The position numbers and the translations under genes are program-made. 64,000 nt of DNA from Pseudobdellovibrionaceae bacterium (GTDB lineage: Bacteria > Bdellovibrionota > Bdellovibrionia > Bdellovibrionales > Bdellovibrionaceae), in assembly GCA_019637875.1 (NCBI GenBank), contig JAHBUW010000014.1, forward strand, positions 1 to 64,000. Reading direction: 5' to 3'. The number at the start of each line of letters is the position of its first letter. The stretch's first letter is position 1. The notes under the pieces were generated by a model. The model was not told the DNA's origin. It was given only the letters and a program-made list of their open reading frames with translations, and ran no database searches. Positions 2,100 through 43,664 of the stretch are shown here, in pieces.

Positions 2100-3983
2100 G
2101 TGAAAGACTCCCACTCTCACTCGAATAAATCGCTGCTCGCCTTGTCCATCGGCGCCCTCGGGGTCGTCTATGGAGATATTGGGACGAGCCCCCTGTACGC
2201 GCTCCGTGAATCGTTTCAGCACAATAAATTTCTGGAGCTGACTCCGGACAACATCCTTGGGATCTGCTCGCTGATCTTCTGGACGATCGTGCTGGTCATC
2301 AACCTGAAGTACATGTGGTTCATTCTGCGCGCGGACAACAAGGGCGAAGGCGGAATCCTGTCGCTGATGGCGCTCGCCACGGCCTACGGGCGCGAGGATT
2401 CCAAACGTCGCATCTTACTTTTGATCGTGGGGCTTTTCGGCTCGGCGCTGCTGTACGGAGACGGCGTCATCACGCCCGCGATCTCGGTTCTTTCCGCCGT
2501 CGAGGGGATCAAGATCGTGACGCCGGTCTTTGAGCCTTACATTTTGCCGATCACCATGACGCTCTTAGCGGGGCTTTTCTTCATTCAGCGGATCGGCACC
2601 GGAAGTATCGGTAAAGTCTTCGGTCCCGTCGTGTTGCTATGGTTCTCCTCCATCGCGGCTTTGGGGGCCGCGGGCATCGTCGAAAATCCCGAGATCCTGC
2701 GCTCGCTCAGTCCGCATTACGCCGTGAACTTTTTCTTGAATAACGGTCTTCATTCGATGCTGGTTCTAGGATCCGTCTTCCTGGTGGTCACCGGCGGCGA
2801 GGCCCTCTACGCCGATATGGGGCACTTCGGTAAGCGGCCCATCCGTGCGGCTTGGGTCGCGATCGTTTTTCCCTGTTTGGTTTTGAACTATATGGGGCAA
2901 GGCGCGCTATTGCTACGCAATCCCGCCGGGATCGAGAACCCATTTTACTTCCTGGTCCCGGAATCGCTGCGCATCCCGATGGTGATCTTGGCGACCCTGA
3001 CGACGATCATCGCTTCGCAGGCGTTGATCACCGGGATCTTTTCGCTCACGCGCCAGGCGGTGCAGTTGGGATTCGCGCCCCGTTTGCGAATCATCCATAC
3101 GTCGTCACGCGAAATCGGTCAGATCTATATTCCGACCGTGAACTGGATCCTGATGGCCGGGGTCATGTGGGTCGTGTTCTCGTTTAAAACGTCGAGCTCG
3201 CTTGCGTCGGCCTACGGAATCGCGGTGACGGCGACGATGGTGGTGACGACCTTCCTGGCCTTCGTGGTCGCGCGCAAACTCTGGAATTGGCCGTTGTCGC
3301 GGGCGCTCGCGCTTTTCGGGTTCTTCCTGATGATCGATTTGGCTTTCTTCGGTTCGAACCTGATCAAAATCGCCGACGGCGGCTGGGTGCCGCTCGTGAT
3401 CGCGGCGTTCGTCTATCTGCTGATGTCGACGTGGAAGAAGGGACGCCGCATTTTGGCGGAACATCTGAAAGCGCGCTCGGTTTCGGTGGAAGATTTCTTG
3501 GTTCGTATTAAACAAGCGCCGCCCGTGCGCGTTCCGGGGACCGCGGTTTATATGAGCGGCGATGCGTGGGGCGTGCCCGTGCCGCTGCTGCACAACTTGA
3601 AGCACAACAAGGTTTTGCATGAGCGCGTGGTGCTTTTGACGATCCGTACGGTCGAAGTGCCGAGTGTGAATAAAAAAGAACGTGTCCGCATCGACTCGAT
3701 GGGGCCGAATTTTTACCGGATCATTGCGAACTACGGTTTTATGGAAACGCCCAAGATCAAACACATCCTCGAAGCGTGCCGCGAGCAGGGGATTCACATC
3801 TCTTTGCAGGATACGACCTTCGTTTTGGGTCGTGAAACGATCTTGCCGACGGGTGATCCGAACATGGCGGTCTGGCGCGAAAAAATCTTCGCGCTGATGG
3901 CACGCAATGCCGAGCGGCCCACCGCGTACTTCAAGATTCCGCCGAACCAGGTGATCGAAGTCGGCATTCAAGTCGAGATTTAA
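2100..3983 (+). CDS. kup: Kup-family potassium transporter
   Basis: The protein is a low-affinity K+ uptake system in the inner membrane, thought to be a K+/H+ symporter. Its 627 residues fit the family (about 620-630). The N-terminus ALGVVYGDIGTSPLYALRE is the Kup signature, and LLYGDGVITPAISVLSAVEG and the hydrophobic run to about residue 450 give some 12 membrane helices, followed by a cytoplasmic C-terminal domain. The start is GTG at 2100 with a GAAGG-type site about 10 bases upstream. The gene stands alone, convergent with the patatin gene; only 15 bases separate their coding regions and a hairpin holds both stop codons. Confidence 0.97.
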   Translation: MKDSHSHSNKSLLALSIGALGVVYGDIGTSPLYALRESFQHNKFLELTPDNILGICSLIFWTIVLVINLKYMWFILRADNKGEGGILSLMALATAYGREDSKRRILLLIVGLFGSALLYGDGVITPAISVLSAVEGIKIVTPVFEPYILPITMTLLAGLFFIQRIGTGSIGKVFGPVVLLWFSSIAALGAAGIVENPEILRSLSPHYAVNFFLNNGLHSMLVLGSVFLVVTGGEALYADMGHFGKRPIRAAWVAIVFPCLVLNYMGQGALLLRNPAGIENPFYFLVPESLRIPMVILATLTTIIASQALITGIFSLTRQAVQLGFAPRLRIIHTSSREIGQIYIPTVNWILMAGVMWVVFSFKTSSSLASAYGIAVTATMVVTTFLAFVVARKLWNWPLSRALALFGFFLMIDLAFFGSNLIKIADGGWVPLVIAAFVYLLMSTWKKGRRILAEHLKARSVSVEDFLVRIKQAPPVRVPGTAVYMSGDAWGVPVPLLHNLKHNKVLHERVVLLTIRTVEVPSVNKKERVRIDSMGPNFYRIIANYGFMETPKIKHILEACREQGIHISLQDTTFVLGRETILPTGDPNMAVWREKIFALMARNAERPTAYFKIPPNQVIEVGIQVEI

Positions 3984-4000
3984 GCCCCGTCGCGGGGCTT
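3982..4000. terminator. Hairpin holding both stop codons of convergent genes
   Basis: A perfect 8-bp stem (AAGCCCCG / CGGGGCTT) with a three-base TCG loop. The kup TAA (3981-3983) enters the left arm and the patatin stop (3999-4001) enters the right arm. It could act as a bidirectional terminator, but no long T-run follows on either strand, so termination strength is uncertain. Confidence 0.55.
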
Positions 4001-5123
4001 AAGCTTTCAGGAAGCGTCGGATGTCGTCGGCCTTGGCCAGACCGTCGGCATAGCCGAACTCGATCAGTTTTTTACAGAAGTCCGGATCGAAAAGCAGATA
4101 AGAGATCAGCTCCGAAGCGTCTTCGAGCGGGCCCAGTCCCTTCAGCAGGTAGCGGATGATGCGCGGAAGCCGCGAGCTCATGTGGTGGGCGTGGTGGCCG
4201 ATGTCTTCGGTCGGGTAAACCCAGCTGACGTCCATCGGGCGGAAGTTCAGATTTTCGATCGCGTCCGTGGGAACTTTCTCCAAGAACTGATTGATCTTCA
4301 AAAGACGTTCGACGTCGACCTCGATCCCGTCCAGAAGCACCGAGTTCATGACCATGTTCACGACCCGCGCCACGCTGGGAACTTTGTCTTCACGCTGACC
4401 GCGCGCGCTGTCGGCGGTCCAACCCATCTTGCGTACGCCGATGACGAAGACCGAGCTCGCGCCCAGATGAATCGCGGGGCTGAGCGGAGCGTGGGAGCGC
4501 ACGCAGCCATCACCGTAATAGGCGTCGGCGACTTTGATCGGCGGGAAAAGCAGCGGGATGGCGGACGACGCCATGACGTGCTCCGAGCGAATCTGCGTCT
4601 TCAGGGAGTAGCGGCGGTTGCGCTGCCAGTCGGGAAGGCCTTCACCGCCTTGCACGAAGGTGACGGTGTGGGAATTGCGATAGTCCATGGCGGAAAGCGC
4701 CAGCGCGCGCAGGTGACCTGACTCGACCAACGCGTCGACGCGATCCCAATCCATATTGCGATCAATCAAGGCGCGTAGCGGAGCCGTATCGAGCAGCGAC
4801 TTGCCTGAGGCGCCCGTGAGCGCCCCCAAAGACAGCTCACCCATCCATTTGAAGCCGATCTTACCCATCGACATGATGTCGGTATGGAAGACCTGCTCGG
4901 GCGTCAGCTGCGACCATAGGCTTTCCAGAAACCGGACCTGTTTCGGAAAACGATCCACGCCCCAGCTCAGGCAGGCGGCGTTGATGGCCCCCGCGCTGAT
5001 CCCGGTGATGATTTGGAAAGGAGCTTCGATTTTGAGTTCTTCAGAGATTTCCGCGACGGCCTTAAGGACGCCGACTTGATACGCGCCACGCGCGCCGCCG
5101 CCAGAGAGAACGAGTGCCTTCAT
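3999..5123 (-). CDS. Patatin-like phospholipase
   Basis: This 374-residue protein belongs to the patatin/RssA lipid acyl hydrolase family. It has the glycine-rich oxyanion motif GGGARGAY (residues 8-15), the nucleophile elbow GISAG with Ser43, and the catalytic Asp in YGDG (Asp205), so the Ser-Asp dyad is complete. It has no signal peptide, so it is probably cytoplasmic or uses another export route. The C-terminal third (VARVVNMVMNSVLLDGIEVDVERL) is typical of longer bacterial patatins. The phospholipid substrate is inferred. The gene is convergent with kup and stands alone. Confidence 0.92.
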   Translation of the reverse strand: MKALVLSGGGARGAYQVGVLKAVAEISEELKIEAPFQIITGISAGAINAACLSWGVDRFPKQVRFLESLWSQLTPEQVFHTDIMSMGKIGFKWMGELSLGALTGASGKSLLDTAPLRALIDRNMDWDRVDALVESGHLRALALSAMDYRNSHTVTFVQGGEGLPDWQRNRRYSLKTQIRSEHVMASSAIPLLFPPIKVADAYYGDGCVRSHAPLSPAIHLGASSVFVIGVRKMGWTADSARGQREDKVPSVARVVNMVMNSVLLDGIEVDVERLLKINQFLEKVPTDAIENLNFRPMDVSWVYPTEDIGHHAHHMSSRLPRIIRYLLKGLGPLEDASELISYLLFDPDFCKKLIEFGYADGLAKADDIRRFLKA

Positions 5124-5191
5124 CCCTTGATCTTAACGAAAGGTCGGGGTCTTTGGGTACGCGCAAGGCCGAAAGCTAGACTTCGAAAACA

Positions 5192-5228
5192 CCAAAAAAA
5201 AAGACCGGGCCTTACGGCGCCGGTCTTT
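5192..5228 (-). terminator. Rho-independent terminator downstream of yceI
   Basis: Read on the minus strand, a 9-bp stem AAAGACCGG/CCGGTCTTT with an 11-base loop runs straight into a run of T residues. It lies 35 bases past the yceI stop. Confidence 0.85.
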
Positions 5229-5262
5229 CGGTGTTCGTACGATTCAAGGTCCGCGCAAAGGC

Positions 5263-5937
5263 TTACTTGGTCGCAACGATTTTCAAGCTGAGGTCGATGT
5301 CATTCGCGATGACCTTGTCGCCCAGGCCTTTGAAGAACTTGTCCGAAGCGTAGCGGACATCCCACTTCGAGCGGTCGATCTTCAGGGTGCCGGTCGCTTC
5401 CGCTTTTCCGTCCGCGCCGAGAGTCGCCACGATCGGGAAGGTCACGGGATGAGTCTTACCCTTCAGGGTGAAATCGCCAGTCAGCTCATGCGTCGCTTCG
5501 CCCGCTTTCGGAGCGGTGAGGGTTTTCGCGCTGGTGATTTTGAATGTTGCGGTCGGGAACTTCGCGACGTCGAAGAAGTCGGGCGATTTCAAGTGACCTT
5601 CGAGTTTGCCTTTGTCGCCGGGGCTGGCGGCGAGGTCCTTGTTGTTGATCGAATTCATGTCGATGACGATTTCGCCACCGGTGATGTTTTTGTCGGCGAC
5701 GTTGATCGTGCCCGACTTGATCGCGACGGTGCCGTTGTGTGCCGACTCAACCAAAACTTTTTTACCGGTCCAGCCCACTTCCGAAGCGGCCGTGTCGACC
5801 TTCAAAGTGGTGGCGGCGCCCGCGGCTGCGGCGGCCGACGACGGAGCGGCCTTGGGGTCTTTTTTCGCTTGAGCGGTCAACGCCAAGCTACCGGTGAAAG
5901 CCAAGACGAGAGCTGCGGTCGTAAAATGAATGCGCAT
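5263..5937 (-). CDS. YceI-family periplasmic lipid-binding protein
   Basis: YceI-fold proteins are lipocalin-like beta-barrels that bind isoprenoid chains in the periplasm. The protein (224 residues) has a signal peptide ending TAQAKK, then an Ala-rich linker, then the YceI domain: VDTAASEVGWTGKK at the start, PDFFDVAKFPTATFKITS in the middle (the typical FD-KYP-A-F motif) and LTLKGKTHPVTFP-like residues near the end. The start at 5937 is chosen because AAGGAG lies 8 bases upstream; an in-frame ATG eight codons earlier has no such site. The gene is a single unit with its own terminator. Confidence 0.93.
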   Translation of the reverse strand: MRIHFTTAALVLAFTGSLALTAQAKKDPKAAPSSAAAAAGAATTLKVDTAASEVGWTGKKVLVESAHNGTVAIKSGTINVADKNITGGEIVIDMNSINNKDLAASPGDKGKLEGHLKSPDFFDVAKFPTATFKITSAKTLTAPKAGEATHELTGDFTLKGKTHPVTFPIVATLGADGKAEATGTLKIDRSKWDVRYASDKFFKGLGDKVIANDIDLSLKIVATK

Positions 5938-6040
5938 ACAGAAGACTCCTTTTCTCCTCAAACGGGAGTGTTGAGGGGATCGAGTCTGTCCACACTTGCA
6001 GAGGATGTCACGGCGGGATGCGCCGGGGCATGAGGCTCCC

Positions 6041-6076
6041 CCAAAAAGAAGACCGGAGACTTGCGTCTCCGGTCTT
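6041..6076 (-). terminator. Rho-independent terminator downstream of lon
   Basis: On the minus strand an 11-bp stem (AAGACCGGAGA/TCTCCGGTCTT) with a short loop is followed by CTTTTTGGGG. It lies 30 bases past the lon stop and shares its outer AAGACCGG bases with the yceI terminator. Confidence 0.85.
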
Positions 6077-6105
6077 AAGCCAAGCTCTGACTTGCCTTTT
6101 TGCTT

Positions 6106-8628
6106 CTACTCTTGCTCGGCCTGCACGCCGTCATTCGATTCGGGGAATGCCTCTTCGGTCGTCGGCCGCGGCATGTCCGTCCGCGGCGGGCCTTTCGGCT
6201 CGACCGACTCCAGATCCGCATACTCCGCCTTCACCGTGAGGGGAAGATCCAGCAGGAACTGCGTCTCGATGGGCTTTAAATCCAGATCGAAAACAAGCTT
6301 CAAAAGTTCCTCGACCCGCGCGACGAAATGGATTTCCATCTCGCTGACGACATCCTGCGGAATCTCGCGCAGATCGCGGCGATTGCGTTCGGGAAGGACC
6401 ACGGTCCGGATCCCCGCACGGTGCGCGGCGATGACCTTTTCCTTGATCCCGCCCACGGGGGTGATCGCTCCGCGCAGCGTGATTTCTCCGGTCATGGCGA
6501 GCTTCGAAGAAACCGGACGTCCGGTGAGGAGCGAAATCATGCTCGACAGGATCGATACGCCCGCCGAAGGCCCATCTTTCGGAGTGGCGCCGGCCGGCAC
6601 GTGCAAGTGCAGATCGTACTTTCGCCATTCCAAATTCAATCCTAGATCTTTCAAGTGACTGCGGATCAGGCTCTGCGCGATTTGCGCGGACTCGCGCATC
6701 ACGTCGCCCAATTTTCCGGTCAAAATCAGATCGCCCCGGCCGGGCATCGCCGTGGTCTCGACGAAAAGGATGTCGCCTCCCACCGGGGTCCACGCCAGTC
6801 CCGTCACCACGCCGGGCGGATTGGCTTCCAGCGCCTCTTCCGTCAGGTAGCGGTCGGGTCCCAGAATCTCTTCGATGTCGAAGGACTTGATGCGGACCGG
6901 GTCGGTTTCGTTCTTCTCGATTTTCGCGACGACCTTCTCGCTGACCCCGCGCAAAACGGCGGCGACTTTGCGATCCAATTCGCGCACGCCCGCCTCGCGG
7001 GTGTAGGACGAGATCAGCCGCGTGAGCGCGTCGTCTTCCAGGATCGCGGTACCGGGTTTGAAGCCCTGCTCCTCCATTTGTTTCGGAATCAAATGGTTCT
7101 TCGCGATATGGAATTTCTCGGCCAGGGTGTAGCCGGTCATGTCGATGATTTCCATGCGGTCGAGGAGCGGGGCGGGAATCCCGTCCAGCTGGTTCGCGGT
7201 CGCGATGAACATCACCTTCGACAGATCGAAGGGCACTTCCAGGTAATGGTCCGTGAAGTTCGCGTTCTGTTCCGGATCCAGAACTTCCAGCAGGGCCGCC
7301 GCGGGATCTCCTTGATATCCGCGTCCCATCTTGTCGATTTCATCGAGCAAAAAGACGGGGTTGTTCTCTTGCACGCGTTTCAGTCCCGCGATCACGCGAC
7401 CGGGTAGCGCCCCGACGTACGTCCGACGGTGCCCGCGGATCTCGGCATCGTCACGCACGCCGCCGACACTCACGCGGATGAACTTGCGGCCGAGGGCTTT
7501 CGCGATTGAGCTGGCGAGCGACGTCTTCCCGATCCCGGGAGGGCCCAGGAAAAGCAGGATCGATCCCTTCGCGTTCTTTCTCAGTTTCATGACGGCCAGC
7601 TGCTGCACGATCCGTTTCTTGACTTGCTCCATGCCGTAGTGATCCGCGTCCAGGATCCGGCGCGCGGCCTCGAGGTCGATGTCGGTCTCGACCGCCGATT
7701 TTGACCAGGGGAGCGCGGCGATCAGCTCAAGGTAATTGCGAATGACGTGGCTTTCCGGCGATTGGGGGCCGATCTCGGTCAAGCGACGCAGTTCGCTTTC
7801 CGCGACCTTGCGCACTTCGTCCGGCAGTCCCGCTTCGTCGAATTTTTTCTGCATCTTCTCTTCGAAGGTGCCGTCCTCGCTTGAACCATCGAGCTCTTCG
7901 CGAATGGCTTTCATATGTTCGCGCAAGATGCTTTGGCGCTGCTGTTGTCCCAGTTTTTGACTGAGCTTATTGCGGATTTCCGCTTGCAGTTCGAGGCTTT
8001 CCTTGAAGGACTTCATCAAATTCAACAGATGGAGGGCGCGCTCGCGCAGATTCGTCATCTCGAGAATTTTCTGTTTCTCTTTCAGATCGACGTCGATGTT
8101 ACCGGCGCAAAGCGCGGTCAAATAAGACAGATCGTCGATGCCGTTCAGCATCTCGTTCAATTGATCGGTGTTTCCGGGCAGGACCTTCAGGATGTCTTTC
8201 CCCAGCTGACGAAGAGAATCCAGCAGGGCCTTTTCGGTCTGTTCGTTCATGTCGTTGACGTCGTCGAGCTGCTGGCCGAAAGCCTCGAGGAAATTCTCGC
8301 TCTCGAGCAGCTTAAGGTCTTCCAGGCGCACGCGCGCGAAGCCGCGTAAGACGACCTGGTAGCCGTTCTCGGGTTTGCCTTTCAAAGAGTCGATGCGGCA
8401 GAGCGTGCCGACGGTATGGACGCCGTCCGCGCCGATGGGTTTTTCCGCCGGGATGGCGTCGTCTTGGGGAATTTGTTGCGTGGTGATGATCCAGAAGCCT
8501 CTTTTTTCCGCTTCCTTCAGAGCGCTCACGCTGCGCTCGCGTCCCACTTTCACGACCTGAGTCAGGCCGGGAAATAAAACCGCGTTTCTCAAGGGTAGTA
8601 CGGGAAGTCGTCCGTGCATTGAAGTCAT
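6106..8628 (-). CDS. lon: ATP-dependent Lon protease
   Basis: Lon is a cytosolic AAA+ serine protease that degrades damaged and regulatory proteins. The order is the N-terminal LON domain (LPVLPLRNAVLFPG), a coiled region, AAA+ module with Walker A GPPGIGKTS and Walker B VFLLDEIDKMG, and the Lon protease domain with the Ser in KDGPSAG and Lys in GGIKEK. The catalytic dyad is intact. Start 8628 is used because GGAGG sits 7 bases upstream; the reading frame runs 39 codons further but those residues do not look like Lon. At 840 residues it is about 55 longer than E. coli Lon, because of an acidic Pro/Glu-rich C-terminal tail. It is divergent from the DedA genes. Confidence 0.96.
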   Translation of the reverse strand: MTSMHGRLPVLPLRNAVLFPGLTQVVKVGRERSVSALKEAEKRGFWIITTQQIPQDDAIPAEKPIGADGVHTVGTLCRIDSLKGKPENGYQVVLRGFARVRLEDLKLLESENFLEAFGQQLDDVNDMNEQTEKALLDSLRQLGKDILKVLPGNTDQLNEMLNGIDDLSYLTALCAGNIDVDLKEKQKILEMTNLRERALHLLNLMKSFKESLELQAEIRNKLSQKLGQQQRQSILREHMKAIREELDGSSEDGTFEEKMQKKFDEAGLPDEVRKVAESELRRLTEIGPQSPESHVIRNYLELIAALPWSKSAVETDIDLEAARRILDADHYGMEQVKKRIVQQLAVMKLRKNAKGSILLFLGPPGIGKTSLASSIAKALGRKFIRVSVGGVRDDAEIRGHRRTYVGALPGRVIAGLKRVQENNPVFLLDEIDKMGRGYQGDPAAALLEVLDPEQNANFTDHYLEVPFDLSKVMFIATANQLDGIPAPLLDRMEIIDMTGYTLAEKFHIAKNHLIPKQMEEQGFKPGTAILEDDALTRLISSYTREAGVRELDRKVAAVLRGVSEKVVAKIEKNETDPVRIKSFDIEEILGPDRYLTEEALEANPPGVVTGLAWTPVGGDILFVETTAMPGRGDLILTGKLGDVMRESAQIAQSLIRSHLKDLGLNLEWRKYDLHLHVPAGATPKDGPSAGVSILSSMISLLTGRPVSSKLAMTGEITLRGAITPVGGIKEKVIAAHRAGIRTVVLPERNRRDLREIPQDVVSEMEIHFVARVEELLKLVFDLDLKPIETQFLLDLPLTVKAEYADLESVEPKGPPRTDMPRPTTEEAFPESNDGVQAEQE

Positions 8629-8835
8629 TCGTTGTCCTCCGTCCCAGTTCAAGTGGGATTTCGGTGAATATGGGTGCGACTCGGAATGCGTCAAGGGGGC
8701 CCGGCGCAAACGCGACCGATGCGAGTTCCGCTTCCATTGCCCCAATCGAAGTGCATTATCAGAATTATTGATGTCTCGCGAAACTCACCGACAAAGAGGT
8801 GACGGGCGGCAGCGGAATTGTCACAATCTTCCCAT

Positions 8836-9519
8836 ATGATGCACATTATCGATCTCATCTTGCATGTCGACCTTCATCTGAAAGAGTGGCTCGCGCTCTA
8901 CGGAATTTGGATTTACGTTATTTTGTTCGTCATCATTTTCGCCGAGACGGGTTTGGTCGTTACGCCGTTTTTGCCGGGGGATTCGCTTCTGTTCGCGGCG
9001 GGTGCGCTGACCGCGCTCGGCGATGACGGGATGAATATTTGGTTGCTGGGCGGTCTGCTGATGGCCGCGGCGATCATCGGGGATCAACTTAACTACACGA
9101 TCGGAAATCGTTTCGGGCAGTGGCTCCTGACCGGACATCTGCGACGTTGGGTGAAGGTGGACCACATCCGCCAAACCGAAATGTTCATGGCGAAGTATGG
9201 CGCCTCCGCGATCGTGCTGGCGCGTTTCGCGCCCATTGTCCGAACCTTCGCGCCGTTCGTGGCGGGGATCGGCAACATGAACCGTCGGCGTTTCCTGATG
9301 TTCAACGTCATCGGCGCCATTTTGTGGGTGCAGATCTTCCTATGGTTGGGACACCTTTTCGGAAATCTGCCGGTCGTGCAGAAAAATTTCTCGCTCGTCA
9401 TCGCGGGCATCATCGCCGTGTCGCTGATCCCGCTCGCGGTCGGTTGGTGGAAGGCCCGTAATGAAGCCACGGCCGAGGCGAAGGCGCCGCAGCCGGTGGA
9501 CGCGGCGGGGCCGCGATGA
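8836..9519 (+). CDS. DedA-family membrane protein
   Basis: DedA/VTT-domain proteins are inner-membrane proteins implicated in lipid scrambling and membrane homeostasis. The family motifs are all present: FAETGLVVTPFLPGDSLLF, the GDQLNYTIGNRFG segment and the RFAPIVRTFAPFVAGIG motif with its conserved Arg and Pro residues. Around five hydrophobic segments are visible. The start is uncertain: ATG 8836, ATG 8839 or TTG 8818 are in frame and none has a clean ribosome site. The C-terminus is hydrophilic. The stop overlaps the next gene's start as ATGA. Confidence 0.93.
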   Translation: MMHIIDLILHVDLHLKEWLALYGIWIYVILFVIIFAETGLVVTPFLPGDSLLFAAGALTALGDDGMNIWLLGGLLMAAAIIGDQLNYTIGNRFGQWLLTGHLRRWVKVDHIRQTEMFMAKYGASAIVLARFAPIVRTFAPFVAGIGNMNRRRFLMFNVIGAILWVQIFLWLGHLFGNLPVVQKNFSLVIAGIIAVSLIPLAVGWWKARNEATAEAKAPQPVDAAGPR

Positions 9520-10106
9520 ACGCGTGGATCCGCCGGCAAGTCCTGCGGATGGAGGCATACGCGGATCGTCCGTGGTACCCCTTCTTGATCGGTCTGCTCG
9601 CGGGGCTTGATAACCTCATCGTCGTGGTGCCGACCGACGGTATTTTGATCTCGAGTATTCTGCTGCAGCCGAAGCGCTGGTTGCGTATGTCTTTCGCCAT
9701 CACTTTGGGATCGAGTCTTGGGGGCTTGGTCTTGGCCTGGCTGGTTCAGCATCACGGTTTGCCGTTGATCGAAACCTATTACCCGTCGCTTTTGACGACC
9801 AAGTCTTGGGTTTGGACCGAATACCTCTTCGATAACTACGGATTGATCGTCCTGTTCGCGGTGGCGGCGACCCCGATCATGCAGCATCCGGCGATCGTTT
9901 TGACCGCCCTCAGCGGCACGAGTCTGCTGTCGCTCTTTATGGTCATGATCGCGGGGCGAGCGCTCAAGTATCTTTTCCTCGGGTACATCAGCGCGAAGAT
10001 GCCGGCGCTCTTGGGACGCCTGTGGGGCGTCCGCAAAGAGCTCGAGGAGGTCGGGATCGAGGCCAAACCGAACGAGATTCCCGATCCCCCCACGGTCCTT
10101 CGTTAA
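9516..10106 (+). CDS. Small VTT/YqaA-like membrane protein coupled to DedA
   Basis: This 196-residue protein has four to five hydrophobic segments (WYPFLIGLLAGLDNLIVVVPTDGILI, FAITLGSSLGGLVLAWLV, LIVLFAVAATPIMQHPAIVL). The pattern of re-entrant loops with a proline (VVVPTDG, TPIMQHPA) resembles YqaA and other SNARE-associated/VTT proteins. It overlaps the upstream DedA gene by four bases, so the two are translationally coupled and probably act together in the membrane. No enzyme motif is evident. Confidence 0.7.
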   Translation: MNAWIRRQVLRMEAYADRPWYPFLIGLLAGLDNLIVVVPTDGILISSILLQPKRWLRMSFAITLGSSLGGLVLAWLVQHHGLPLIETYYPSLLTTKSWVWTEYLFDNYGLIVLFAVAATPIMQHPAIVLTALSGTSLLSLFMVMIAGRALKYLFLGYISAKMPALLGRLWGVRKELEEVGIEAKPNEIPDPPTVLR

Positions 10107-10219
10107 CCCCTCAGTTGTTGATCGGACGGGGACATTTTTGCGCGCCTCGTTTCAGAGTGAGACGGCGCCCGCGATCTAGTGGACGGGAGCGTGAACGCGC
10201 TTTGCACCGCCAGAGAGGC

Positions 10220-29446: not shown

Positions 29447-29467
29447 GTTCGGGTCCAGTTGCCGCTC

Positions 29468-30007
29468 TCAGATCTCGACCAGCAGACGACGCAGCTCTTC
29501 TTTGGAGTAGAGATAGTCGGCGTAAATCATCGTATTGGCGATGTTGCGGTGGCCGAGCGCCACCTGAAGTAAACGAATGTCGCGCGTGCGCTTATAGAGC
29601 TCGATCGCGAAGGTGTGGCGAAGCGAGTGGAACTTCTTCGGCACGGGTCGGTACAGCTGCCAGATCTGATAAAGCCGTTCGTAAGAGATGTCGAAGAGCT
29701 TCGTTCCCTCGAGGCCCTGATTGTAGCGGTGAAGCCGCTGGAAGAGCTTGGAGGGCAGGGGGATCTCGCGGTCGTTGGATCCCTTGATCCCCCGAATAAA
29801 GAGCGTTTCGTCGTTGAGAATGAGGTCCGAGCGCTGACAGTTCAGAAGCTCGGTCGCCCGCGCCCCGGTCTGTAGAGCGAGTTCTAAAAGTAAAACATTG
29901 CGGGGATCGGAGTCTTGAAAAGAGCGAAAAATCTGCCGAAGACGAGCTAGCTCATCGTCGAGGAGATACTTGTTTTTATTCAGTGCGTAACGGGGGACTC
30001 TTGACAC
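29468..30007 (-). CDS. Minimal tyrosine recombinase (catalytic domain only)
   Basis: From GTG 30007 the product is 179 residues and consists almost only of the catalytic domain. The active-site set is complete: Arg50 in TGARATELL, Lys75 in IKGSNDR, HSLRH with His127 and Arg130, LGHRN with His153, and Tyr162 in MIYADY. The N-terminal core-binding domain of XerC/D and phage integrases is absent, as in FimB/FimE-type invertases. The frame extends to a GTG at 30082, but that start has no ribosome site and the extra residues do not look like a domain; 30007 has GAGG 12 bases upstream. It is divergent from the membrane-HTH gene, across a region rich in inverted repeats. Confidence 0.9.
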   Translation of the reverse strand: MSRVPRYALNKNKYLLDDELARLRQIFRSFQDSDPRNVLLLELALQTGARATELLNCQRSDLILNDETLFIRGIKGSNDREIPLPSKLFQRLHRYNQGLEGTKLFDISYERLYQIWQLYRPVPKKFHSLRHTFAIELYKRTRDIRLLQVALGHRNIANTMIYADYLYSKEELRRLLVEI

Positions 30008-30157
30008 GCTGCATATACCTCGCGAGTGCGAATTCTTGATTTCAAAATAGAGGAAAAAGGGCCTGGATGGAGGTCCAAACACAACGCATCAATTCTGATG
30101 ACCCAACTCTTCCATCCGCTGAACATATAAAAATCATCGTAAATACATAGACTTAGC

Positions 30158-30185
30158 ACTACAGCTTATAACTATAAGCTGTAGT
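30158..30185. repeat. 28-bp palindrome with 13-bp perfect arms
   Basis: The arms ACTACAGCTTATA and TATAAGCTGTAGT are exact complements around a two-base AC centre. It lies 151 bases upstream of the recombinase start. It may be a recombinase core site or an operator. Confidence 0.9.
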
Positions 30186-30284
30186 CGGAATCGTAAAAAG
30201 GGGTCCAGGGGTAGGGGTGGATTGAATTCTTGAGGGAAATCCGCAACTTCCAGCAAAACTGGACCTGACTTCTTAAGCCCTTTC

Positions 30285-30313
30285 TTGTGAAATACATCGA
30301 GATTTCATGTGAT
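30285..30313 (+). promoter_or_regulatory. Candidate promoter of the membrane-HTH gene
   Basis: TTGTGA and TGTGAT (each 4 of 6 to the sigma-70 consensus) are separated by 17 bases. The -10 element overlaps the first GTGAWTCAC palindrome, so a bound repressor would block it. Confidence 0.35.
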
Positions 30314-30338
30314 TCACAACGAAAATGATGTGAATCAC
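30309..30338. promoter_or_regulatory. Paired operator-like palindromes GTGAWTCAC
   Basis: GTGATTCAC (30309-30317) and GTGAATCAC (30330-30338) are both 9-bp palindromes; their centres are 21 bases apart, two turns of the helix. They lie 26-55 bases before the HTH gene start. Confidence 0.65.
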
Positions 30339-30363
30339 CAGTCTGCAGAAAGGTCCAGACGGC

Positions 30364-31149
30364 ATGGATGTCGAAAAAGAAGGCCCCCAAAAGCCCCTCC
30401 CGGGCGAGAGTTCCAAGACAGGGCAGGCAGCCTCGGTTTCAAAGGTCGATTTAAAATCCACCCTCGGAAACGACGTTTTACCCCCTCTTTTGAAGTCGGA
30501 TTTCGAATCTGCACTTCGCTCGAAAACCAGTCTTCGACTCATTTATGAGGCGCAGACCCAGGTCATTCAGAAGCAAATCGGGGATTTGGAATCGGTTCGC
30601 GAAAAGCTCGGTTTGAATGCGCGCAAGATCTGCCAACTTTTGATGGTCGACCCCTCGGCTTGGAATCGCTGGACCCGGCCCGGCCACACCGCCCCTCCCC
30701 ATATTTGGCGCGCTCTACAGTGGTATATGATCGTTCAAGAGAAACTTCCCGGACTCAGTCCGCAGTTTTTCATCGAGCGGGTGGTCACCAAGGTTGAAAA
30801 GGTCACGGAAAAGACGGTCGAACGCGTCGTCGACATCCCCCGCGAAACCGATTTTTCATCCCCCGTCCTGGATCCGGATTTTGCGGCTCATTTGGAAGAA
30901 CGAAATCAGCTTTTAAATCAGGACCTCGGTGAAATCCGCCAGCAGTCGCAAACCCTGCTCACCCAAATCGAAACCCAGAACGAACTTTTGAAATCCCAGG
31001 CCGAGCAGATCCAACGCTTGAAGATGACCCTGGTCGTGGGACTTTGCCTTTGCTTCGGTTTGGTCATCGGGCTTTTGAGCTATCAGGTGAAGCGCGCCAA
31101 TACGCCCGCGTGGGAAAACCTGCCCTCGGTCGAAGACTCTGCGAATTGA
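30364..31149 (+). CDS. Membrane-tethered helix-turn-helix protein
   Basis: The 261-residue protein has no signal peptide. Residues 77-122 (REKLGLNARKICQLLMVDPSAWNRWTR) read as an XRE-like HTH, then a coiled-coil rich in Val/Glu/Lys heptads (137-160 and 176-220), then one membrane segment MTLVVGLCLCFGLVIGLLSY (221-240) and a short tail. The topology places the DNA-binding end in the cytoplasm with a C-terminal anchor, the reverse order of most known one-pass regulators. No family name is recalled. Its TGA shares an A with the next ATG (TGATG), so the two genes are coupled. It could bind the palindromes upstream. Confidence 0.7.
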   Translation: MDVEKEGPQKPLPGESSKTGQAASVSKVDLKSTLGNDVLPPLLKSDFESALRSKTSLRLIYEAQTQVIQKQIGDLESVREKLGLNARKICQLLMVDPSAWNRWTRPGHTAPPHIWRALQWYMIVQEKLPGLSPQFFIERVVTKVEKVTEKTVERVVDIPRETDFSSPVLDPDFAAHLEERNQLLNQDLGEIRQQSQTLLTQIETQNELLKSQAEQIQRLKMTLVVGLCLCFGLVIGLLSYQVKRANTPAWENLPSVEDSAN

Positions 31150-31862
31150 TGTTGAAGTTCGACGCCCACGGCATTTTGGTCGACACGCAGGCCGGGGACG
31201 GCGGCGATTCGGCCAATCGCGCGGGCCTTTGGGCGCTGCTCGGTCATGCGCAACCGCTGGACCTGTTCGAACAAAAGGGCTTCCTTGTCCGACATCCTTT
31301 TCAAGAGCCTTGGAATCACCCCGGCAACTTCACGCGGGATCAGCTCTTACCTTATGTTGCGGGTCTTTGGCGGCAAGGCGAAATCAAGGCCGCGCGGCGC
31401 GTGTTTTGGCGGCATTTGCGCAGAGGATTTTTCGCGCAAAATCTCGATCGCGACCAGCCGGGGACGCGCAAGAAACCTTGGCCCCACCGTTATCGGGATG
31501 ATCGCGATGAGCGGGCGTTTTCGTGGTTTGATTTTGCCGATCCGCTGATGCCGGACCATATCTTTCATCTGATTTTGTGCGCCCGACTCTGGCCGCTCTA
31601 TATTTTCGGGATCTTCGGGTATCCGTGGCTTCTCATCAATATATTCGGACACGGACTGTTCAGTCGCTCGGACGATGAGGGGCAGATCCTGAGTCAGTGT
31701 CTGCGCGCGGGAAGACCCTTCGTCGCGTTTTATCGATTCGTGAAGCCGGACTATCGTGAGTCACTGCGACGTTACTGGGATGAGCGCCGGCGAATGGGGG
31801 AAATTGCCGACGCTCTGATCGAACAGGTCGAGGTGAACCCCCGACTTCAAACGCTCGATTAA
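31149..31862 (+). CDS. Unknown protein coupled to the membrane-HTH gene
   Basis: The start is ATG 31149, overlapping the upstream stop; the longer frame from 31044 lies in the HTH gene. The 237-residue product begins DAHGILVDTQAGDGGDSANRAG and continues RHPFQEPWNHPGNFTRDQLLPYVAGLWR, a pattern with conserved-looking Asp, His, Trp and Arg. A hydrophobic stretch (LWPLYIFGIFGYPWLLINIFG, about residues 155-175) may be a membrane or interface segment. I do not recognise the family and assign no function. The stop directly abuts the stop of the convergent zinc-ribbon gene. Confidence 0.6.
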   Translation: MLKFDAHGILVDTQAGDGGDSANRAGLWALLGHAQPLDLFEQKGFLVRHPFQEPWNHPGNFTRDQLLPYVAGLWRQGEIKAARRVFWRHLRRGFFAQNLDRDQPGTRKKPWPHRYRDDRDERAFSWFDFADPLMPDHIFHLILCARLWPLYIFGIFGYPWLLINIFGHGLFSRSDDEGQILSQCLRAGRPFVAFYRFVKPDYRESLRRYWDERRRMGEIADALIEQVEVNPRLQTLD

Positions 31863-40504: not shown

Positions 40505-42400
40505 TTGAAGGCATTTGTTTATCTTGCTCTCGTGACCTGCTTTTTCGCGCTCGAAACCCGCGCGGGCTCAACCCAGACCAAAGATTACGTCGACGAGGTC
40601 GACTACACACAGAAGCTTCCCGCGGGCTCACGCTGCCTTTTCGGCTGCGTCACCAACGATGACGGCACCTTGAGTCCGATCATCCGGCGTTCCACACGGC
40701 CCGTTCCGGCCGAGGTGCAAGAGGAAAAAGTCTGGGTTCCCAATCGCGAAGTCCGCTATGAGAAAGAATCCCCTCGCGCGTGTAAATTCGGCTGCGATAA
40801 AAACAAGGACGGCACTTTCTCACCACGCGTCCTGGTCCCGAAGTCCCAGGCCGCGAAATACATGAAAGACACGACGATCGCGGGCCCGAGCTCGGCGGAC
40901 ATCTTGGCCGAGGAAAATCGCCGCCGGGCCATCGCCAAAAAGCAAGCCGACGAACAGGCCCGCCTTCGCGAGGCCGCGCGGGTGAAAGCCCGGGACGAAG
41001 CCATCGTCGCCGAAGAGACTCGCAAACGCGAGATCGCGAAAAAAGCCGAAGCGGCGCGGTTAAAGGCCCAAAACGACGCGGTCGTTCCGGGCACCCGGGG
41101 CGTGGGCGTCGTTGCCGATGAGCCCACGCGATCGCGCGGGACGCGGGATGCGGCTTTGAACGAAGCGGTGAACGCGGCGACGGGGAACGACCCCGCGTTC
41201 AATAAAGGACTTCGCGAAAAGCTCGCCCGCGATCCGCTGACGAGTGGATTTACGACCCGCCAAGAATTCGAGGCCTATATGAACTCCGAGAATTTCCGGA
41301 ATCAGCCGTCGGTCGCCCGTCTTTACGTCGATGCCCGTCAACGCGCGAACGAACAGGCCTTGGGCGTGGCGGTTCCGGCCTCCGAAACTCAAGATAGCGT
41401 CCGCGCCGAAATTGAAGCACGACGTAAAAAGATCGAAGAAGAACGGGAAGCCGCAGCCCAAAGGGCCCGGGCCGAGTACGATCGTAAACTCATGGAGGAT
41501 CAACTCCCCGCGACGCCGAGTTATGAAGACACCACCCGCGAAACCCAAAAGAGCATCGAACGCCTGCGCCAAGATCAAATCAGTGCCGACGCCAATGTCG
41601 AAGCCAAGCGCCGCGAACTGCAGCAAGCCGAGCTGGAGCGGGCGCGCCTGAAGGGTACTGCGGCCGACACCCCAAACGGAGGTCTAGGTGTTGCGACGCC
41701 GGCCGGGGAGACCACGACCGGAGGTGGGCCTTGTTCGAATCGGAAAATGTCGGCGCGTGAACTTGAAAACTGCTCGATGGAGCAACTCAAAAAAGACAGC
41801 CAGGCCGCGGATCAGGCGGTCGCCCGCTGTTTCTATTCGGGTTTCGCGGCGAAGAATGGCGCGAACAACGTTTGCCAGCCGGTGCGCTCCAGTAAAGACG
41901 CAAAAGACCTTGGCGTGAAGCTGAACGGCGTCGCCGAAACGAACTGCGGCGGCGGCATGGTGATGTGCAATCCGCTCGTCTTCGGCGTCCAGTCCGACAA
42001 ACGTGCGATCTGCGTCCGCGGCACCAAAAATGCGTCAAAAGACTGCGCCAAAACCGCGAATCTACAGAGCGAAGACGCAAAAAAACGCTATCAAGAGCTC
42101 ATGAAAGATGCGGAGAACAAAAAACAGTTCAAAGAACTCATGGCGAAGCACAAACGCTCCTGTGATGCCGCGGCGATGGTTCGTTATGGCGAACACGAAA
42201 TGAATCAGATCGAGCATGATCGGGCCTTCACGGCCAACATCAAAAACCGCAAAGACAAAGAGGATCACCGGGTCACCTGCGAAGTCTTAGGCGTCGCGAT
42301 TCAGGTCGCCAAAGAGGCTCAAGGCGCACCAGAATCCGTTGCGTTGCCCACACGCGGAATCCAAGAAGGTGTACCGGTCGAGGGCGAAACTCGACGCTAA
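40505..42400 (+). CDS. Large exported coiled-coil protein with two Cys repeats
   Basis: Start TTG 40505 is chosen because GGAGG lies six bases upstream; the earlier GTG at 40466 is less likely. The signal peptide is FVYLALVTCFFALETRA. Residues 43-58 and 92-107 are repeats of one motif, C-x3-GC-x2-N-x-DGT-x-SP. Long charged coiled coil follows (ENRRRAIAKKQADEQARLRE), then the linker motif LGVAVPASETQ / LGVATPAGETT, then a Cys-rich C-terminal domain (CSNRKMSARELENC onward, with CNP, CVRG and SCDAA). No known family. It resembles the protein at 46499-48379 in size, Cys content and linker. Confidence 0.65.
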   Translation: MKAFVYLALVTCFFALETRAGSTQTKDYVDEVDYTQKLPAGSRCLFGCVTNDDGTLSPIIRRSTRPVPAEVQEEKVWVPNREVRYEKESPRACKFGCDKNKDGTFSPRVLVPKSQAAKYMKDTTIAGPSSADILAEENRRRAIAKKQADEQARLREAARVKARDEAIVAEETRKREIAKKAEAARLKAQNDAVVPGTRGVGVVADEPTRSRGTRDAALNEAVNAATGNDPAFNKGLREKLARDPLTSGFTTRQEFEAYMNSENFRNQPSVARLYVDARQRANEQALGVAVPASETQDSVRAEIEARRKKIEEEREAAAQRARAEYDRKLMEDQLPATPSYEDTTRETQKSIERLRQDQISADANVEAKRRELQQAELERARLKGTAADTPNGGLGVATPAGETTTGGGPCSNRKMSARELENCSMEQLKKDSQAADQAVARCFYSGFAAKNGANNVCQPVRSSKDAKDLGVKLNGVAETNCGGGMVMCNPLVFGVQSDKRAICVRGTKNASKDCAKTANLQSEDAKKRYQELMKDAENKKQFKELMAKHKRSCDAAAMVRYGEHEMNQIEHDRAFTANIKNRKDKEDHRVTCEVLGVAIQVAKEAQGAPESVALPTRGIQEGVPVEGETRR

Positions 42401-42565
42401 AAGATCCTATCTCGTCGTCGTGACATAATATAACTTATCGGAAAACAAAGTCCCCACGAACGTCGGGGGCTCCATTCCTCAATAATTCGTGTTCCTTCTC
42501 TTCAAAATACACCCCCAAATCATGGGGATCACTTGCGTTCTCTCACGCCGCATCGGGATTTTTAC

Positions 42566-42594
42566 TTGATCAATACCGATTCTGGTTTTGGAAT
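42566..42594 (+). promoter_or_regulatory. Candidate promoter of the barrel-lipoprotein pair
   Basis: TTGATC, a 17-base spacer and TGGAAT, ending 38 bases before the GTG start. It lies in an AT-richer 232-base gap. Confidence 0.35.
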
Positions 42595-42632
42595 TTGTCC
42601 GTCCAACACCAACGACTCGATAAGGAGATCTA

Positions 42633-43664
42633 GTGAAGCATCTTGTACTCGCAGCGGCCCTGACATTGATCGTCCCCCAAGCTTTCGCATCGAAAGCGCG
42701 CCTGGACAGCCTTCAAGGCGCAACCTTCCTGAAAGACACCCAGACGGTCTTTTTGAATCCCGCGCACATGCATTCGCTGGGTCAGTACCTGACCTTCGAA
42801 GCCGGCGCTCAAGGCACCACCGGCACCAAAGCGGAAGGTGGATTCCTGCGCAATGACGGCGACGTGAAGTACGGTGCTTATTTGGGCCACATGAGCCCCT
42901 TCCAGAACGCTTACCGCGCGAGCGGCTACGCTCTGGGCGGAACTTTCCTGGCGCAACAGAACCCCGTTTCGTTGATGTACGGAAAAAATGACTGGGGCGT
43001 CGTCCTGGATTTGTCGAACTCGGATAAAAAATCGACCTCCGAAAAAGAAACCACCGTCGGTATCCGCTTCGGCCAACAAGCTGAAGATTCGGAATACTAT
43101 GTTTCGCTCGACCTGTTGGGGAACGCGGAAGCGGCTTCGAACAAAATGTCGACGACCGTTCTGGGTCTCGGCTACGAAAAAGCTTCGGGCGCATGGTACT
43201 ACAACGCTTCGCTCGCTTACGCGATGACGAAAGCGGATGTGGCTCCCGCCTCGGAAAGCGGAAGCGAAGCCCTGATTTCGCTCTCGGCGGCGAATCGTTC
43301 GCTGAAAACCGATCGCGCGGACATCTATTACGGAGCGGGTCTGGACATCGTTAGCGGTAAAATCGCTTCGGCGAATCGCTCGATCCTGCGCCTGCCCCTG
43401 TTCTTGGGTCTGGAACACCAGACTTCGAGCTGGCTCGTGACTCGCGTGTCGGTGTCGCAACCCTTGTTCATCTCGAACGCGAAAGATCAAATCTCGGCAG
43501 CGACCGCGGATACCGACACCCTGGCGAACGCGACTCGCGTTGCGGCGGGCGTTGGCATCAAGTACCAAGAATTCGTGATCGACGGTTCGGTCATGGCGGC
43601 GGCGAACGGAAACATCAACGGGAACCAGGTCCTGTCGCAAGCGGCCCTCACCTACACGTTCTAA
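42633..43664 (+). CDS. Outer-membrane beta-barrel protein ending in Phe
   Basis: GTG 42633 has AAGGAG five bases upstream. The signal peptide is LVLAAALTLIVPQAFA, followed by SKARLDSLQGATFLKDTQTVFLNPAHM, a start seen in delta-type proteobacterial outer-membrane proteins. Alternating strands fill the rest and the last residues LTYTF carry the C-terminal Phe typical of BamA-inserted barrels. Size is 343 residues. Ligand unknown. It probably forms a unit with the lipoprotein that follows by 15 bases. Confidence 0.8.
   Translation: MKHLVLAAALTLIVPQAFASKARLDSLQGATFLKDTQTVFLNPAHMHSLGQYLTFEAGAQGTTGTKAEGGFLRNDGDVKYGAYLGHMSPFQNAYRASGYALGGTFLAQQNPVSLMYGKNDWGVVLDLSNSDKKSTSEKETTVGIRFGQQAEDSEYYVSLDLLGNAEAASNKMSTTVLGLGYEKASGAWYYNASLAYAMTKADVAPASESGSEALISLSAANRSLKTDRADIYYGAGLDIVSGKIASANRSILRLPLFLGLEHQTSSWLVTRVSVSQPLFISNAKDQISAATADTDTLANATRVAAGVGIKYQEFVIDGSVMAAANGNINGNQVLSQAALTYTF

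Follow-up and report, generated by a model that had tools for sequence, protein, structure and literature searches.

A candidate second, single-recombinase, dif-like recombination system at the chromosome terminus of Bdellovibrionales

Background

The XerH/difH system of Helicobacter and Campylobacter and the XerS/difSL system of the streptococci each consist of one tyrosine recombinase and one terminus site, in which inverted arms surround a 6-bp centre, and the site is often located beside the recombinase gene. The same arrangement is found in the locus described here, which lies in a Pseudobdellovibrionaceae genome within a 64,000-nucleotide stretch of DNA that was analysed as a whole (contig JAHBUW010000014.1, positions 1 to 64,000; hereafter the window). 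However, XerH and XerS, at about 350 aa, possess a core-binding domain and form the sole Xer system of their genomes, whereas the enzyme of the present locus comprises about 178-179 aa, consists of the catalytic domain only, occurs 3.7-17 kb from XerCD/dif and, unlike XerH and XerS, is accompanied by a tail-anchored HTH partner. Archaeal XerA/dif likewise combines a single recombinase with a 28-bp site, but XerA has a core-binding domain, is the sole Xer and belongs to another domain of life. Tyrosine recombinases of about 200 aa restricted to the catalytic domain are represented by FimB and FimE, but their substrate is a promoter flanked by two inverted repeats, while the locus here holds one site and no invertible segment. 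In linkers of the MatP-ZapB type a DNA-binding protein near the terminus is linked to the cell envelope, a feature which is also proposed here; in contrast to such linkers, dispersed sites are lacking, the operator motif being all but restricted to this locus.

The XerL/dif system of Legionellales resembles the present one in that integration of a mobile element revealed the site, in its conservation near the terminus and in its single recombinase (PMC9765430). Legionellales lack XerCD, the part of the account consulted includes no description of a membrane-bound HTH partner such as the one found here, and the element concerned exploits the host enzyme, whereas the proviruses at the present locus bring their own relative of the recombinase (PMC9765430). 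With slightly better than even confidence, the locus is judged from its sequence to represent a second site-specific recombination system of the chromosome terminus, dif-like and served by a single recombinase. Its features are presented in Table 1.

Table 1. Features of the locus and of the neighbouring XerCD dif, with positions in the window
Feature	Position	Strand	Evidence or remark
Catalytic-domain-only tyrosine recombinase, about 179 aa	29468-30007	-	PF00589, 46-member alignment, AF2 model, structural matches
Conserved left flank of the site, consensus TAATTTCAAnTACTTAAT	30134-30157	+	TA at -4/-3 invariant in 43/43 sites
Palindromic dif-like recombination site, 28 bp (11-6-11), ACTACAGCTTA-TAACTA-TAAGCTGTAGT	30158-30185	.	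Covariation, provirus insertion, single copy
Operator-like palindrome 1, CTTGTGAAATACATC	30284-30298	.	Array with 21-22 bp spacing upstream of the HTH gene in relatives
Operator-like palindrome 2, CATGTGATTCACAAC	30306-30320	.	Sequence, inverted repeats I9/I11, spacing as in relatives
Operator-like palindrome 3, GATGTGAATCACCAG	30327-30341	.	Sequence, inverted repeat I11, spacing as in relatives
HTH protein with coiled coil and C-terminal membrane anchor, 261 aa	30364-31149	+	AF2 model, family HTH matches, TM survey, co-occurrence
Downstream ORF, 237 aa, lineage-specific	31149-31862	+	Coupled by TGATG; outside the module
Canonical XerCD dif, Bdellovibrio type, TTTTCCGATAAGTTATATTATGTCACGA	42418-42445	-	12.3 kb away, on the HTH side

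Results and discussion

A tyrosine recombinase reduced to its catalytic domain

A preliminary description of the locus had recognised a recombinase consisting of the catalytic domain only, divergent from a gene for a membrane-anchored HTH protein, and this architecture is borne out by a Pfam match of the recombinase to PF00589 (2.9e-22), by AlphaFold modelling and by a survey of transmembrane segments in the HTH family. The recombinase start was placed at the GTG at 30007 on the basis of the equivalent start in homologues, with the mechanical ORF extending to 30082. Residues R50, K75, H127, R130, H153 and Y162 are invariant in the alignment of 46 sequences and correspond to the tyrosine recombinase catalytic set R-K-H-R-H/W-Y. 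The AlphaFold model (pLDDT 93.9) represents a lone catalytic domain without a core-binding domain, with XerH (Z 17.8) and XerA (Z 16.7) as its closest folds. When compared against curated protein family models, the highest score was obtained with the archaeal XerA model NF040815 (91 bits), which is under the cut-off of 220, while the scores and cut-offs, respectively, were 63 and 335 bits for XerC, 65 and 330 for XerD, 52 and 267 for XerS and 55 and 265 for the integron-integrase model TIGR02249. The two models of tyrosine-type DNA invertases (FimB/FimE-type) gave 42 and 32 bits against cut-offs of 222 and 221, so that by model score the protein is not of the FimB/FimE type. Simple tyrosine recombinases, including the described Xer enzymes, incorporate a core-binding as well as a catalytic domain (PMC8138268). 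Since the former is missing and all scores stay under the curated cut-offs, the protein was not classified in the Xer subgroup; though outside this subgroup by architecture and score, it is predicted to work like a Xer enzyme. 

A single palindromic site in the intergenic region

The gap between the divergent genes (30008-30363; 356 bp) has a G+C content of 43 %, compared to about 57 % in its surroundings. It had been described as AT-richer and packed with inverted repeats, of which the first part holds, while the second could be retained for the 28-bp site and the three phased operator-like palindromes, the only other meaningful repeats in the gap; the remaining listed repeats are weak or fall inside the recombinase gene, and find no support in relatives. 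The 13-bp perfect inverted repeat of the site is longer than any observed in 1000 Markov simulations (maximum 10), and its inverted arms and 6-bp centre conform to the 28-31 bp layout of Xer-type sites. Using a strict score, an equivalent 28-bp site could be distinguished at 43/49 loci and at 18/19 further loci, and it is present as a single copy per genome. The arms covary, with 57 double-changed cells as opposed to 21 in shuffles and 6-27 in slid controls, and the inner A and AA of the arms are among the positions that never vary. TAACTA is the predominant spacer, with TGGCTA or TGACTA occurring in a Bdellovibrio subclade that keeps perfectly palindromic arms, and many arms are still 11/11 palindromic despite this drift. 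Covarying arms around a drifting, asymmetric spacer represent the pattern expected of the site of a homomeric recombinase.

The site lies at a nearly constant distance from the HTH start (median 174 bp), whereas insertions of up to 9.6 kb separate it from the recombinase in some loci. Where the HTH gene is kept without an intact recombinase, the site is absent in four of the five genomes (G178, G285, G038 and G011, all scored with enough flanking sequence present) and decayed in the fifth (G050). Comparison of the loci indicates that site and recombinase belong together. In genus g30 there is a second HTH paralogue, and the HTH gene of G178 may be of this type.

In the scattered loci L079, L095, L104, L295 and L283 the spacer is inverted relative to the conserved flank, with TAGTTA in place of TAACTA and TAGCCA in place of TGGCTA. 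A fixed orientation of the spacer relative to dif was considered, and no rule emerged from 17 genomes, with opposite orientations in twelve and the same orientation in five. The possibility of a telomere-resolvase target was likewise discarded, as the spacer is non-palindromic and the site serves for integration.

Proviruses inserted in the site

A provirus of 9,465 bp is placed exactly within the 6-bp spacer of the site in G024, and the situation in G001 is similar. The corresponding locus of the relative G132 is an empty site, corresponding to the left half of the G024 attL and the right half of its attR (90/97 on the attR side), from which it follows that the crossover took place inside the 6-bp centre, within the shared TAACTA. 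The flank motif ACTTA also precedes the provirus-borne half site in both G024 and G001. The sequence of these junctions identifies the 28-bp element as a real recombination site. The proviruses, of about 9.4 kb, encode a packaging-type ATPase, an SLT lysozyme and a recombinase about 40 % identical to the resident one, and since they carry this related enzyme, the resident recombinase is a putative rather than an established user of the site. The deep vertical conservation of the locus favours the proviruses as probable exploiters of the site, analogous to LME-1 with XerL in Legionella (PMC9765430).

These elements belong to a family of small proviruses of about 9.4 kb (L063:4283-13658, L064:4480-13938 and L288 about 2500-10200), of which two members are located in the 28-bp site and one elsewhere in G132. 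Family members encode a possible capsid protein of 370 aa, of unknown family, in addition to the ATPase, the SLT lysozyme and their own catalytic-domain-type recombinase. A single query of IMG/VR with the provirus ATPase returned no viral relatives. Two more tyrosine recombinase genes, 40 % and 34 % identical to the resident enzyme, are encoded in the same genome as the window (L116; G000:C6:33710-34270, 42299-42694), and the recombinases were the only proteins of the G001 and G024 proviruses for which matches were found in this stretch.

The HTH protein, its putative operators and the downstream ORF

The AF2 model of the HTH protein comprises XRE-like helices (56-127), followed by a single long helix (171-246) of which the C-terminal membrane segment forms part, and a Foldseek search with this model gave weak XRE-type matches and nothing else. 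The C-terminal transmembrane anchor is present in 39/46 members of the HTH family, and a K/R-rich tail ends five others. In several lineages (L087, L091, L097, L100 and L102) the anchor is exchanged for a lysine- and arginine-rich tail resembling histone H1, perhaps another way of holding or compacting DNA.

The most likely targets of the HTH protein are the putative operator palindromes, spaced by 21-22 bp, upstream of its own gene, and autoregulation would be the simple reading of such binding to the predicted operators. It is also an attractive reading that the protein may tether the terminus site to the membrane. Palindrome 1 is the sole match to the operator motif at 12/15 or better within the 64-kb window. 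A MatP-like organiser of dispersed terminus sites was considered and rejected, as the motif has no clear genome-wide enrichment in comparison with genomes lacking the HTH gene.

The downstream ORF overlaps the HTH stop codon (TGATG around 31147-31151). The preliminary description had proposed that three genes and the DNA sites function together, which can be maintained for the recombinase, site and HTH gene, a compact and conserved set, but not for this ORF: no homologues were found at the loci of 54 relatives (E 1e-3), and for this reason it was judged to lie outside the module. Profile searches gave HTH_31/HTH_3-type matches among the HTH family members, while the downstream ORF remained without a match in Pfam and PADLOC searches.

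Position relative to the terminus, dif and XerCD

The canonical dif consensus was not found in the window when three mismatches were allowed, while the Bdellovibrio-type dif was located with its own motif and corresponds to the dif described for HD100 by Carnoy and Roten. In all 32 genomes where dif was located near the locus it lies 3.7-17 kb away, on the HTH side (32/32), while it was undetected within about 20 kb of the locus in G053, G048, G046, G043, G044 and G055, which belong to other families. The locus is situated at 0.42-0.525 of the chromosome from dnaA in 11/13 complete or near-complete genomes (G006, 0.525; G033, 0.490; G036, 0.511; G001, 0.503; seven more, 0.42-0.51). In the single-contig genomes G175 and G277 it occurs at 0.32 and 0.31, respectively, and dif is displaced along with it. 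Conserved synteny explains much of the proximity between locus and dif; in G016 and G017 this proximity is kept amid largely different neighbours. The sign of the GC skew and the polarity of the GGGNAGGG motif change between 30 and 45 kb in the window, with the KOPS polarity switch somewhere at 30.2-44.7 kb, except for one motif at 30693; in HD100 dif fits the switch better. The KOPS motifs, which do not favour the 28-bp site over dif, fall short of proving that FtsK is aimed at it.

As in Xer systems, there is a single chromosomal site near the replication terminus. The locus is not the only Xer system in its genome, as it coexists with intact XerC, XerD and dif, and matches to the XerD model at XerD-like and XerC-like strength occur in nearly all 23 genomes tested, including those without the locus.

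Conservation across the phylum

Among 291 genomes of the phylum, the recombinase is encoded in 77 and the HTH gene in 80, with both present in 76, the recombinase only in one and the HTH gene only in four. In agreement with the compact locus originally envisaged, the two genes are thus not found apart in most relatives, and gene-by-gene comparison shows them to be almost always divergent neighbours. The module is restricted to one order and two genomes of the same class, and both genes are lacking in genus g3, genus g5 and several small f4 genomes. In g3 and g5 (for example G002 and G004) the recombinase, site and HTH gene are gone, while the flanking genes and canonical dif remain. By its sequence context, this absence looks like a clean loss of the module. 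The named database matches sharing at least 45 % identity all derive from Bdellovibrionota, one of them being titled only Proteobacteria, and the next ones share 37 % or less.

For the recombinase dN/dS is 0.009-0.029 and for the HTH gene 0.023-0.057, which denotes strong purifying selection, and the two proteins have diverged in a correlated manner (Mantel r 0.60; 0/2000 permutations), as is expected of co-inheritance. The suggestion that the locus may be a small mobile module was rejected because it is single-copy at the terminus in nearly all members, vertically kept, under purifying selection (dN/dS 0.009-0.057) and fixed beside XerCD dif. No reports on the locus were found in a literature search, for which the HD100 locus-tag range queried was a guess, and it looks previously unreported as a second terminus recombination system.

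Alternative explanations

An unlikely alternative holds that the locus is a domesticated phage lysogeny module, in which an integrase of ancient origin, its attachment site and a cI-like repressor with three operators remained at the terminus and now provide immunity or a decoy against related viruses integrating at this place. The presence of three phased operators ahead of an XRE-like gene, weak matches to phage repressors, and the use of the same site by proviruses whose recombinases share about 40 % identity with the resident one are consistent with such a history, but the resident module is devoid of other phage genes, is single-copy and order-wide with dN/dS values of 0.009-0.057, and keeps its place at the terminus near dif (32/32). 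Membrane anchoring is furthermore unusual for a phage repressor, which also counts against this explanation. Nearly all of the sites are empty, which fits poorly with a recombinase that merely maintains an integron-like or attB-like integration hot spot, with cargo capture as its benefit. A provirus does occupy the site in two genomes, and insertions occur between recombinase and site in G037, G048, G044 and G053, but the latter lie beside the site and leave it unsplit, no cassette array was seen on inspection of the ORFs and the score with the integron-integrase model is low (55 against 265 bits), so that this explanation appears improbable.

The palindrome could also be an RNA hairpin or terminator, with the recombinase acting elsewhere, since its arms covary as RNA stems do and it is intergenic. 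This is rendered very improbable by the lack of a U-tract after the palindrome, the insertion of a provirus exactly in the 6-bp centre, the loss or decay of the site where the recombinase is lost but the HTH gene kept, and the conservation of the non-palindromic flank. A phase switch, with inversion of an intergenic promoter by the recombinase, had been put forward in the preliminary description, and the FimB/FimE-like build, the divergent genes and the inverted repeats would be in keeping with it. Inversion requires two sites and the recombination site is single-copy per genome, so that there is no invertible segment; the locus order is furthermore constant among relatives and the FimB/FimE-type models score far below their cut-offs (42 and 32 against 222 and 221 bits). 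The phase switch was rejected on account of the single-copy site, and is scarcely credible.

Proposed function and implications

The best reading of the locus as a second terminus recombination system is that it serves to unlink sister chromosomes, with dimer resolution and terminus anchoring as the parts that we infer from the sequence. Each site would be occupied at its two near-identical arms by two recombinase monomers, a pair of sites, one per sister chromosome, would synapse, and strand exchange within the 6-bp spacer would resolve a dimeric or linked pair of sisters at the terminus. The tail-anchored HTH protein would bind the phased palindromes, all three of which lie about 100-155 bp from the site, and repress its own promoter, and it may keep the terminus site anchored to the membrane or time the action of the recombinase, the role which FtsK plays for XerCD. 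As there is one symmetric site per chromosome, only intermolecular exchange can take place, either between sisters or, as integration, with a circular element; the deep vertical conservation at the terminus favours sister exchange as the host function. Evidence against this reading is that XerC, XerD and dif should already suffice for dimer resolution. The loss of the module from some lineages, the provirus-borne recombinases, the failure of KOPS motifs to favour the site over dif, the missing core-binding domain and the position at 0.31-0.32 in two single-contig genomes, albeit with dif displaced alongside, likewise count against it. In a more far-reaching proposal, which is tentative and rather doubtful, two terminus systems would operate in parallel throughout the order, with the HTH protein supplying in trans the DNA-binding or positioning function missing from a minimal, catalytic-domain-only Xer-like enzyme, and pinning the operator array and terminus site to the membrane, so as to resolve the many sisters of filamentous predators with non-binary division.

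The described single-recombinase Xer systems replace XerCD, whereas much of the order carries this locus within a few kilobases of an intact XerCD dif. For the separation of multiple chromosomes in Bdellovibrio, a 2023 review names only XerCD/dif and FtsK (PMC11318664). How chromosomes are separated within one Bdellovibrio filament is an open question, for which the locus provides a precise candidate, with the 28-bp site, the enzyme of about 178-179 aa and the membrane-anchored DNA-binding partner all being present in the laboratory strain HD100, at about 1,933.9-1,935.4 kb. The enzyme would furthermore constitute a minimal Xer-like case for asking what the core-binding domain does.
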